Source: Gemmata massiliana (GTDB lineage Bacteria > Planctomycetota > Planctomycetia > Gemmatales > Gemmataceae). From it: a DNA stretch of 64,000 bases. Every line of letters begins with the position of its first letter. The stretch's first letter is position 1. The stretch lies in NCBI RefSeq assembly GCF_901538265.1, contig NZ_LR593886.1:3803738-3867737 (forward strand), given 5' to 3'. Both the position numbers and the translations under genes were made by a program. This document shows positions 23,554 to 29,001 of this stretch, one piece after another. Below the pieces are notes generated by a model. It was given only the letters and a program-made list of their open reading frames with translations. It did not search any database and was not told where the DNA came from.

Positions 23554-23596
23554 AAACAAAAGCGCCCCGGACGAGCTTTCGCCGGCTCGCCGGGGC
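23554..23596 (-). terminator. Strong intrinsic terminator of the tRNA-like RNA block
   Basis: Read on the minus strand, GCCCCGG and CGAGC pair with GCTCG and CCGGGGC (12 bp with a single bulged base). An 8-base loop separates the arms, and TTTTGTTT follows almost at once. It lies about 45 bases downstream of the second tRNA-like unit and is the natural end of the minus-strand non-coding transcript. Confidence 0.85.
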
Positions 23597-23639
23597 TTGG
23601 CCCTACAAGCTTGCGCTCGCGGGTGTGCCGTCTCAGGGA

Positions 23640-23784
23640 GTGTTCACAGTATCCGGTCGCCGGCCTTTAATCTCGTAACCAACCGCCTTACCGTTAGGCG
23701 ACCCCCGCGTAGGGTTGGGCGAAGCGCGGGGGAATGGAATCGAACCACTATGTGTTGGTTGGGGCCGTTCGTTCGATTGAACAC
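23640..23784 (-). ncRNA. Permuted tRNA-like RNA, unit 2 (3' half before 5' half)
   Basis: On the minus strand the order is: anticodon 3' strand CCAAC (23758-23754), 4-base variable loop, T-arm AGTGG-TTCGATT-CCATT (23749-23733), acceptor 3' strand CCCCCGC (23732-23726) and discriminator G. A 16-base spacer follows. Then come acceptor 5' strand GCGGGGG (23708-23702), a 4-bp D-arm GCCT/AGGC with loop AACGGTA, and anticodon 5' strand GTTGG (23683-23679). Acceptor (7 bp) and anticodon (5 bp) stems pair perfectly and spacing is that of a class I tRNA. The open anticodon ends continue into pairing flanks: GGCCG/CGGCC, and TGAACAC (23646-23640) with GTGTTCA (23784-23778). No CCA is encoded. If the loop were rejoined as TTACGAA the anticodon would be ACG. 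No normal-order partner halves exist. Confidence 0.72.
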
Positions 23785-23816
23785 CTCGGCACGGTACTGA
23801 ACCTGGCGTGACAACC

Positions 23817-23990
23817 TGAACCTGTGGGGCAGCAGTTCCGCCTCTACCGTTGGGCTACCCCTTCCGCGTTTGGGAGTGAAGGGGGTGGGAGTCGAACCCA
23901 CACTGTGTGCTGTCCCGATGAGCCGAAACCTGAATCTCAGCCTGCACGCCTGTGCGAAGAACATGATGCCGCGAACGGCGAAGAGGTTCA
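23817..23990 (-). ncRNA. Permuted tRNA-like RNA, unit 1 (3' half before 5' half)
   Basis: On the minus strand a T-arm GTGGG-TTCGACT-CCCAC (23901-23885) runs straight into acceptor 3' strand CCCCTTC (23884-23878) and discriminator A. A 12-base spacer follows. Then come acceptor 5' strand GAAGGGG (23864-23858), TA, and a D-arm with GCC/GGC and the loop AACGGTA seen also in unit 2. The acceptor stem is a perfect 7 bp. Farther out, TGCTG (23834-23830) pairs with CAGCA (23912-23908), extended by CCC/GGG, and AGGTTCA (23823-23817) can pair with TGAACCT (23990-23984). The anticodon region is not canonical and no anticodon can be assigned. A two-piece tmRNA-like fold is possible, but no tag peptide frame was recognised. 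Confidence 0.6.
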
Positions 23991-24006
23991 ACCCTTTCGC
24001 AGTTTT

Positions 24007-24657
24007 TTATGTCTTCTCGAGTAGAAGATCGATCACCCAGCAACCGCGGGAGTGTGCTCCACCTGGGCTGCGGCAGTGCCCCAGGACATCGGGGTGCGAG
24101 CACCCGGCGTCTTGCAGCGCGTCGGCGAGGATCGGCAATCGCTCGAAGGCGCGGTCGGCATAGATCGCTTCCCCGAGGTCGACGGCCGTAGTCGTCCGCC
24201 ACCGAGGATCGAGGGCGACCGGGCGGAACGGGTTGCCAACGACACAGCGGAGAAGGGGAGCTTGGGCCGCTGTAATCGAGCGGAAGTCGTCCCATCCCGT
24301 GGCGACGGCAAGGTCCATTATCGCACCCATTGCCGCTTGCAACCCGCCGGCCCCGATCAACTTCAGCGCGACGTTGTGGATCGCGTGGGCTTGGGCGTCG
24401 TCGCAAGGGAGGCTCATGATCGTGTCATAAAGCTCCTTTGTCTCGGCGCTGCTCGACTGCCCGTCAGCTACTTCAATAGCTCGCGCGCAGTACGGGTCGG
24501 TGAACAGTTCCTGCCGCTGACGACAGCAGGCGACCGCGAAAAGACGGAGTTTTCGGTCCAATGCCCGGTGCCGTGAGGGGGCTTCCTGCATCCATCCGTG
24601 CAACGGCATTAGCATGTGGTCGCTGTGCGGGCAGTCGTCCCACTCGCGGTCTGTCAT
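24007..24657 (-). CDS. Gemmata-type conserved protein of unknown function
   Basis: The protein has 216 residues. It has a DRKLRLFAVACCRQ block near residue 35 and a C-terminal block (NPFRPVALDPRWRTTTAVDL, then AFERLPILADALQDAGC and a final RGCWVIDLLL). These remembered blocks recur in many Gemmataceae proteins, sometimes next to SMI1/KNR4-like genes. No biochemical role is known to me. The tRNA-like RNA block begins immediately after its stop on the same strand and may be read from its promoter. Confidence 0.75.
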   Translation of the reverse strand: MTDREWDDCPHSDHMLMPLHGWMQEAPSRHRALDRKLRLFAVACCRQRQELFTDPYCARAIEVADGQSSSAETKELYDTIMSLPCDDAQAHAIHNVALKLIGAGGLQAAMGAIMDLAVATGWDDFRSITAAQAPLLRCVVGNPFRPVALDPRWRTTTAVDLGEAIYADRAFERLPILADALQDAGCSHPDVLGHCRSPGGAHSRGCWVIDLLLEKT

Positions 24658-27795: not shown

Positions 27796-29001
27796 CAGGG
27801 TTGGCGCACTATGAACCCGTGACGGCAGCCGCATTTACGTCTATATCGGGGTTGTTATGGAGGAACCCCGATGAGTATTCCGCTGCTGGCGGTGTTTGCG
27901 GATGTGCCAGACCCGCGCCGCGAAACGAAGAACAAGTTGCATGAGCTGGTGGATATCCTCACGTTGGCCACGTGTGCGGTGATCGCCGGGGCCGACGGGT
28001 GGGACCAGGTGGCCGCGTTCGGTCGGGCCAAGCAAACGTTGTTCGCCCCGTACCTGCGGTTGCCCCACGGGGTTCCGAGCCCGGACACGTTCGAGCGCGT
28101 GTTCGCCAAGCTGGACCCGGACGCGTTCGCGGACCGGTTCGGGCGCTGGATGGCAGCCGCATGCGAGAGTACCGGCCTGGTGCACGTGGCGATCGATGGT
28201 AAGAGCGCCCGGCGGTCCACCAAGAACACGTTCACCGGGTGCTTGCATCTGGTCGAGGCGTGGGCCGTGGAGAACCGGTTGATCCTGGGCCAGCGGTCCG
28301 TGCCCGAGGGCGGACACGAGATCACCACGGCCCCAGATCTGTTGGGCGCCCTGGATCTGACGGGCGCGGTGGTGACCGTCGACGCGGCCTTTTGCCAGAA
28401 GGAGTTGGTGTCCCAGATCCGCACCCAGGGCGGGCATTACGTGGTGTGCGTGAAGGGGAACCAGAAGGGGTTGCGCGGCGCGGTGGCGGAGGTGTTCGCG
28501 CGGGCCGGGGAGGACGCGTTCGCCGGGTGTGACATGGGGTCCGCGGTCGAGGACGGGCACGGGCGCGAGGAAGAGCGGTACGTGACGGTGGTTGAAGATC
28601 CGGAAGGGCTACCGAGCGGGTGGGCCGATGTTGGGGCCGTGGCCCTGGTGTGCCGGGAGCGGGTGGTGAACGGGAAGCCGAATGAGAGCACCGCCCATTA
28701 CTACCTCACCAGCTTGCGGATCGGGGCGGTCGAGCTGGCGGGGTACATCCGCAACCATTGGGGCATTGAGAACGGGCTCCATTGGTGTCTGGACATCGCG
28801 TTCCGGGAAGACGACAGCCGGGCTCGGGCCGGACACGCCGGGGCCAACCTGGGCATGATTCGCCGGGTTGCCCTGTCCCTGCTCCAGCGGGCGGACACCA
28901 AGGGCAGCATTCGTACTCGACGCATGAAGGCCGCCTGGGACGATCAATACCTGCTCAAAGTGCTTAAGATTCTGACGACTAAATGAAGTGCGCCGGCCCT
29001 G
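27796..29001 (+). mobile_element. ISAs1-family insertion sequence, copy 1 (1206 bp)
   Basis: Ends are imperfect inverted repeats: left CAGGGTTGGCGCACTA, right end complement CAGGGCCGGCGCACTT. A 10-bp target duplication GGTTACCCCG flanks it (27786-27795 and 29002-29011). It carries one transposase gene. It is the same length as copy 2 at 45115-46320 and nearly identical to it, so movement was recent. It sits in a stretch without intact genes. Confidence 0.95.
27871..28986 (+). CDS. ISAs1 family transposase
   Basis: The protein has 371 residues. It is a DDE transposase: N-terminal DPRRETKNKLHELVDILTLA, first Asp in VAIDGKSARRS, second in VVTVDAAFCQKE, and the Glu in the YIRNHWGIENGLHW block near the end. 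The frame is complete, so the element may be active. It differs from the copy 2 protein by one residue (Leu against Val in the DxLGALD segment). Confidence 0.96.
   Translation: MSIPLLAVFADVPDPRRETKNKLHELVDILTLATCAVIAGADGWDQVAAFGRAKQTLFAPYLRLPHGVPSPDTFERVFAKLDPDAFADRFGRWMAAACESTGLVHVAIDGKSARRSTKNTFTGCLHLVEAWAVENRLILGQRSVPEGGHEITTAPDLLGALDLTGAVVTVDAAFCQKELVSQIRTQGGHYVVCVKGNQKGLRGAVAEVFARAGEDAFAGCDMGSAVEDGHGREEERYVTVVEDPEGLPSGWADVGAVALVCRERVVNGKPNESTAHYYLTSLRIGAVELAGYIRNHWGIENGLHWCLDIAFREDDSRARAGHAGANLGMIRRVALSLLQRADTKGSIRTRRMKAAWDDQYLLKVLKILTTK

Follow-up and report, generated by a model that had tools for sequence, protein, structure and literature searches.

Permuted tRNA-like modules on the minus strand

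The analyzed stretch of DNA (the window) comprises 64,000 nucleotides of the genome G000 and carries on its minus strand, from 23625 to 23955, two modules whose T-arm and 3′ acceptor strand are located ahead of the 5′ acceptor strand and the D-arm. With its promoter-like and terminator-like motifs, the block spans about 23555-23991, and the RNA itself corresponds to C1:3827362-3827692 of the genome. The stems were re-read directly from the sequence, and the arrangement given in the initial annotation proved correct, including the perfect acceptor stems GAAGGGG/CCCCTTC of unit 1 and GCGGGGG/CCCCCGC of unit 2, the bases equivalent to tRNA position 73 (A23877 and G23725) and position 1 (G23864 and G23708), and the 4-nt variable region ACAT, the 4-bp D-stem GCCT/AGGC and the pairing of GTTGG with CCAAC within the closing stem of unit 2. 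For the detection of further sites, both strands of the window were scanned for a T-arm, 7/7 acceptor pairs, a D-stem and GG in the D-loop in the permuted order. Exactly two sites were obtained, unit 1 and unit 2, and none was found in 40 dinucleotide shuffles of the window.

In unit 1, GAAGGGG (23864-23858) is followed by TA and the D-arm GCCCAACGGTAGAGGC, while the D-arm of unit 2 reads GCCT-AACGGTA-AGGC. In both modules, a loop bridges the acceptor ends, and neither module contains an anticodon loop; the ends of the closing stems run into long covarying basal stems. The third acceptor pair is A-T in unit 1 and G-C in unit 2, and an alanine-type G3-U70 pair is present in neither. For unit 2, the minimum free energy fold of the single sequence is the same as the fold derived from covariation. 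The individual features are summarized in Table 1.

Table 1. Features of the RNA locus and their positions in the window.
Feature	Position	Strand	Basis or remark
Upstream gene, 525 aa	24847..26424	(-)	borders the RNA in several relatives too
-35-like TTGAAC, putative promoter	23986..23991	(-)	positional conservation
-10-like CATCAT	23963..23968	(-)	conservation in relatives
Unit 1: basal stem GGCGTG/CACGCC and permuted tRNA-like module	23805..23955	(-)	covariance model R2, 168.2 bits
Unit 1 T-arm GTGGG-TTCGACT-CCCAC	23885..23901	(-)	sequence; compensatory UA to CG, GC to AU
Unit 1 3′ acceptor strand CCCCTTC	23878..23884	(-)	7/7 pairs with 23858-23864
Unit 1 acceptor loop	23865..23877	(-)	A73-like base, then CT
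Unit 1 5′ acceptor strand GAAGGGG, U8-like T and D-arm	23840..23864	(-)	sequence, covariation
Linker between unit 1 and unit 2	23793..23804	(-)	12 nt; within the genus 12-13 nt
Unit 2: basal stem GTGCCG/CGGCAC, 3′ bulge CTCCCTGAGA, closing stem, permuted tRNA-like module	23625..23792	(-)	covariance model R1, 193.6 bits
Unit 2 closing helix, 5′ strand ACCAAC	23754..23759	(-)	pairs with GTTGGT 23683-23678
Unit 2 T-arm AGTGG-TTCGATT-CCATT	23733..23749	(-)	sequence, covariation
Unit 2 3′ acceptor strand CCCCCGC	23726..23732	(-)	7/7 pairs with 23702-23708
Unit 2 acceptor loop, 17 nt	23709..23725	(-)	begins with G73-like G, then CT
Unit 2 5′ acceptor strand GCGGGGG, D-arm and 3′ strand GTTGGT of closing (anticodon-stem-like) helix	23678..23708	(-)	
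Terminator-like hairpin GCCCCGG..CCGGGGC with TTTTGTTT	23555..23596	(-)	positional conservation

Immediately 5′ of the RNA, the motif TTGAACC-(16-17 nt)-CATCAT was found in most of the 21 copies described below; a few copies have a different -10-like word in the position of CATCAT. Downstream of unit 2, relatives carry a GC hairpin and a T-rich stretch at the corresponding place. A generic scan for sigma-70 promoters and terminators listed neither motif of the RNA, and the promoter-like and terminator-like calls therefore rest on positional conservation across relatives, from which we also infer transcription, with a start expected near 23955. Of the strong intrinsic terminator proposed initially, the conserved GC hairpin with TTTTGTTT thus stands, but it was not recognized by the generic scan. 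Between the RNA and the conserved upstream gene, a 216-aa frame (window 24007-24657) is present only in G000 and G009 among the loci read. Farther away, at window 27871-28986, lies a 371-aa open frame, which we take to resemble an ISAs1-type transposase.

Conservation and covariation in Gemmataceae

By DNA search, 13 of 19 genus genomes contain the block, while three further ones gave only short matches elsewhere, either tRNA-like or other. Using the covariance model R1, full-length unit 2 was found in 21 of 95 Gemmataceae genomes, which belong to several genera and eight of which lie outside the genus, and with model R2 unit 1 was located upstream of unit 2 in 20 of these 21 loci. In the model-fitted alignments, 97.8% of the cells of unit 2 are paired and 27 of its 44 pairs are changed on both sides; the respective values for unit 1 are 98.3% and 8 of 29, and for both units none of 500 shuffles reached the count. 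MAFFT alignments of the genus copies, made with no structure fitting, still gave double changes at 15/44 pairs in unit 2 and 5/29 in unit 1. The same layout and compensatory changes in the acceptor stems, proposed initially as a check of the reading, were thereby both found in other Gemmataceae: double changes occur at 4/7 pairs of the unit 1 acceptor stem, at 6/8 pairs of the unit 2 acceptor (helix 7) and at 6/6 pairs of the unit 2 closing helix (helix 5). The 3′ bulge CTCCCTGAGA of unit 2 is near-invariant within the genus. Homologue lengths differ by non-multiples of three, which argues against a coding function. Taken together, it is close to certain that the block is a genuine structured RNA.

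Nearly all copies retain the 7-bp acceptor stems, U8, GG in the D-loop and the TTCRA T-loops, of which the latter two are typical of substrates of tRNA-modifying enzymes; in G062 (L145), the T-loop of unit 1 is lost. At the place resembling position 73, unit 1 has A and unit 2 in most cases G; the next two bases are CT or TT. Acceptor loops usually comprise 10-21 nt; five relatives have a loop enlarged to about 60-100 nt, and it is the acceptor loop in each case (90-101 nt for unit 1 in four relatives and 63 nt for unit 2 in one). The corresponding inserts of ~45-90 nt, some of them inverted-repeat-like, are situated exactly within the loop (unit 1 of L044, L048, L050 and L139; unit 2 of L046).

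When model R1 was applied to 102 genomes of the order with stricter filters, no strong match was obtained beyond Gemmataceae, and a gapped DNA pattern searched in about 85,000 species gave model-confirmed matches only in records grouping with Gemmataceae genomes. Matches in Methanoculleus and in viruses were ordinary tRNAs, other odd matches did not fit the covariance model, and a second viral pattern gave no match.

Probable relationship to YrlA and occurrence of Ro60-type genes

YrlA is a bacterial Y RNA with a tRNA-like domain mimicking the D, T and acceptor arms of tRNA (PMC8394870); its basal stem binds Rsr/Ro60 and its tRNA-like domain binds PNPase (PMC8394870, PMC6181284). Y RNAs in general are regarded as partners of Ro60-type proteins (reviews, e.g., PMC8394870). 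In the Rfam consensus of YrlA (RF02553; Salmonella, Mycobacterium and others), a basal stem encloses the T-arm, the acceptor hairpin and the D-arm, and this order of arms inside a stem formed from the two ends of the RNA, together with the mimicry of tRNA arms, was also found here. Permuted tRNA mimics were already known in bacteria as YrlA. The Rfam model aligns to unit 1 end to end (positions 1-114; 24.5 bits, E 0.0083) and scores 30.8 bits on L011, 29.5 on L013, 29.4 on L010, 24.6 on L003 and 24.0 on L002, and 28.5 and 28.0 bits on the further homologues L123 and L125. The block and its homologues (24-31 bits) remain below the Rfam gathering score of 69 bits, as do the TROVE-adjacent RNAs of Gemmataceae with 33-68 bits. 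The RNA is likely related to YrlA; since it misses both the cut-off and the neighborhood of Ro60, it was filed as a YrlA-like variant and not as a strict member. In contrast to YrlA, two units are combined in a single conserved RNA, the acceptor loops comprise 10-21 nt and up to about 100 nt in some relatives, the basal stem of unit 2 has the distinctive CTCCCTGAGA bulge unlike the YrlA consensus, and the gene lies away from Ro60 and also occurs where no Ro60-type gene was detected. New here are the combination of two modules in a conserved RNA that is not encoded next to Ro60, its persistence in 8 of 21 carriers in which no Ro60-type gene was detected, acceptor loops that are open and tolerate inserts, and the position of a CCA-adding-enzyme gene immediately downstream in 8 of 21 genomes. 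Literature searches combining permuted tRNA with planctomycetes or Gemmata with Ro60 yielded no entry.

In G000, no Ro60/Rsr gene is located beside the RNA; the TROVE genes detected lie at C1:4096497 and 4978910, the nearest about 0.27 Mb away. Among the 21 carriers of the RNA, eight possess a TROVE gene and 13 a TROVE or vWA protein. Co-occurrence of the RNA with Ro60-type genes is above expectation (Fisher p 0.004 for TROVE and 0.0009 for TROVE or vWA), in a test that ignores phylogeny and genome size. Searches for TROVE and vWA proteins detected neither in the other eight carriers (G001, G004, G006, G010, G018, G063, G064 and G072), of which seven are at least 93% complete, where the RNA must therefore be able to function with some other partner as well. 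The RNAs of these genomes are not degenerate, as exemplified by G001 with 192.8 bits.

YrlA-like modules were also found next to Ro60-type genes. At TROVE loci, they occur in pairs in L028 (68.1 and 38.9 bits) and L035 (49.4 and 32.7 bits) and as single matches in L036 and L037. The basal-stem head UGCAGG is common to unit 1 (GGCG-UGCAGG) and the TROVE-adjacent Y RNAs of the genus (GGUGG-UGCAGG), which is only suggestive of binding of the basal stem by Ro60/Rsr. In L053 (G000:C1:4090000-4104000), L056 and L058, YrlA-like modules precede the TROVE genes, and further short stems there repeat the motif GGTGCAGGTCCGGGTTACTT; these stems seem to be Y RNAs that lack a tRNA module.

In the genome of the window, a HEAT+vWA protein is additionally preceded by four modules in tandem (L157, G000:C1:7196497-7198092). 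Arrays of up to four modules before this 541-aa protein were also seen in L155, L156, L158, L160-L165 and L168 as well as in L147 and L148, and one array module, which has a long variable arm, resembles a leucine-type tRNA. The HEAT+vWA protein gave no Pfam match above the cut-off and no PDB sequence match of note, while a profile comparison gave a probability of 96% against one TROVE group and only 3% against the other. A divergent Ro60 is a plausible but unproven assignment. Permuted tRNA-like modules are thus widespread in Gemmataceae and go unnoticed in standard tRNA and Rfam annotation.

Proposed function and alternative explanations

The locus is probably best explained by one noncoding RNA of about 390-400 nt with two tandem YrlA-like units, serving as a scaffold or gate in RNA handling. 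Each unit consists of a long basal stem, formed by pairing between the two ends of the unit, on which a tRNA mimic sits as a cap; the arms of the mimic are permuted, as the place of the anticodon loop is taken by the basal stem. By analogy to YrlA and the Y RNA of D. radiodurans, the basal stem may be held by a Ro60-type ring protein where such a protein is present, and the tRNA mimics may dock on proteins recognizing the elbow and the acceptor stem of tRNA, e.g., PNPase or tRNA-modifying enzymes; thereby, the RNA would act as a scaffold or gate for RNA handling. In the RYPER complex of Deinococcus radiodurans (Rsr, Y RNA and PNPase), the Y RNA stem binds the ring protein and the tRNA-like part binds PNPase (PMC6181284, PMC4726728). 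The likeness to RYPER concerns the proposed working mode; the partners of the present RNA are putative, and in some carriers a Ro60-type gene was not detected. A conserved tandem Y-RNA-like gene in genomes without detected Ro60 makes a job of the tRNA mimic itself testable, and the insert-tolerant acceptor loops and the neighboring cca gene described below indicate specific enzymes as candidates.

An RNA derived from a Y RNA could also function independently of Ro60 as a tRNA mimic. RNase P and 3′ processing enzymes would cleave its acceptor loops and thereby create genuine acceptor ends, to which CCA may be added, and the RNA would serve the enzymes of tRNA processing as decoy, carrier or sensor. 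The tRNA-like elements kept in nearly all copies, the position-73-like base followed by CT or TT, the eight carriers without any detected Ro60-type gene and the adjacency to cca in 8/21 genomes would agree with such processing, as would the insert-tolerant acceptor loops compared with the tetraloops GCAA, TTCG or GAAA in several TROVE-adjacent copies. However, CCA is not encoded, and open acceptor loops also occur in Y RNAs beside Ro60-type genes (L028, L157), so that an open loop alone is no sign of Ro60 independence. We consider this explanation rather unlikely. For its more specific form, a Ro60-independent two-module mimic with acceptor loops processed like pre-tRNA ends and a functional tie to tRNA 3′-end metabolism through the CCA-adding enzyme, whose gene is adjacent in several genomes, the chances appear somewhat lower still.

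The gene adjoining the RNA in these 8/21 genomes (G001, G002, G004, G008, G012, G013, G018 and G063) encodes a member of the CCA-adding enzyme/poly(A) polymerase family (PF01743). It lies directly downstream, and the adjacency was seen in two genera. The loci with cca directly 3′ of the terminator of the RNA are L042, L044, L047, L049, L050, L141, L046 and L041. This raises the possibility of a leader RNA or attenuator of cca, in which the tRNA mimics would control terminator read-through from the RNA promoter into the cca mRNA. In G001, G002, G004, G008, G013 and G063, the cca ATG follows the T-run of the terminator by roughly 7-14 nt, which leaves little room for a separate promoter, and a TTGAAC promoter-like motif similar to that of the RNA precedes cca in the RNA-less genus species G011 and G017 (L083, L080), a pattern that would fit gain or loss of the RNA between its promoter and cca. 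On the other hand, G018 has a separate promoter-like motif between RNA and cca, and 13 of the 21 carriers, including the genome of the window, have cca elsewhere and the RNA is still conserved. The basic function is therefore not cis regulation of cca, and attenuation as the general explanation is improbable, while a cis role on cca is possible in some species.

Permuted or two-piece tRNA or tmRNA genes acting in translation, suggested by the near-canonical T-, D- and acceptor arms, are very improbable. In algae and archaea, circularly permuted tRNA genes have the 3′ half ahead of the 5′ half, the two being separated at the acceptor end by an intervening sequence; the present RNA has the same order with sequence between the halves at the acceptor end, but a basal stem in place of the anticodon arm. 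With two-piece tmRNA it has the permuted order of the tRNA-like domain in common, but it lacks the alanine-type G3-U70 pair, and the genome contains an ordinary one-piece tmRNA besides (C1:7686318-7686726, 142.8 bits). At the block, neither ARAGORN nor Rfam at gathering thresholds detected a tRNA or tmRNA in normal order. After rotation, ARAGORN called a tRNA in 19 of 19 rotatable units, a result biased by the artificial anticodon loop and CCA added to them. The initial annotation thus holds in that a planctomycete carries a tandem pair of permuted tRNA-like modules, but permuted or two-piece genes of the algal, archaeal or tmRNA kind are not supported, given the missing anticodon loop, the YrlA-like basal stems and the normal tmRNA elsewhere; the supposed tmRNA-like pairing extensions are in fact covarying Y-RNA basal stems, and the layout was already known from YrlA.

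Functionless scrambled tRNA remnants, a reading to which the short tRNA-like T-arm matches in ordinary tRNA arrays of relatives might point, have a negligible probability, being refuted by the covariation in 21 genomes, the fixed unit order, the conserved terminator-like hairpin and the single match in the own genome, which holds no second copy from which the block could be scrambled. Many weak Rfam miRNA matches below the cut-offs were taken as chance hairpins.
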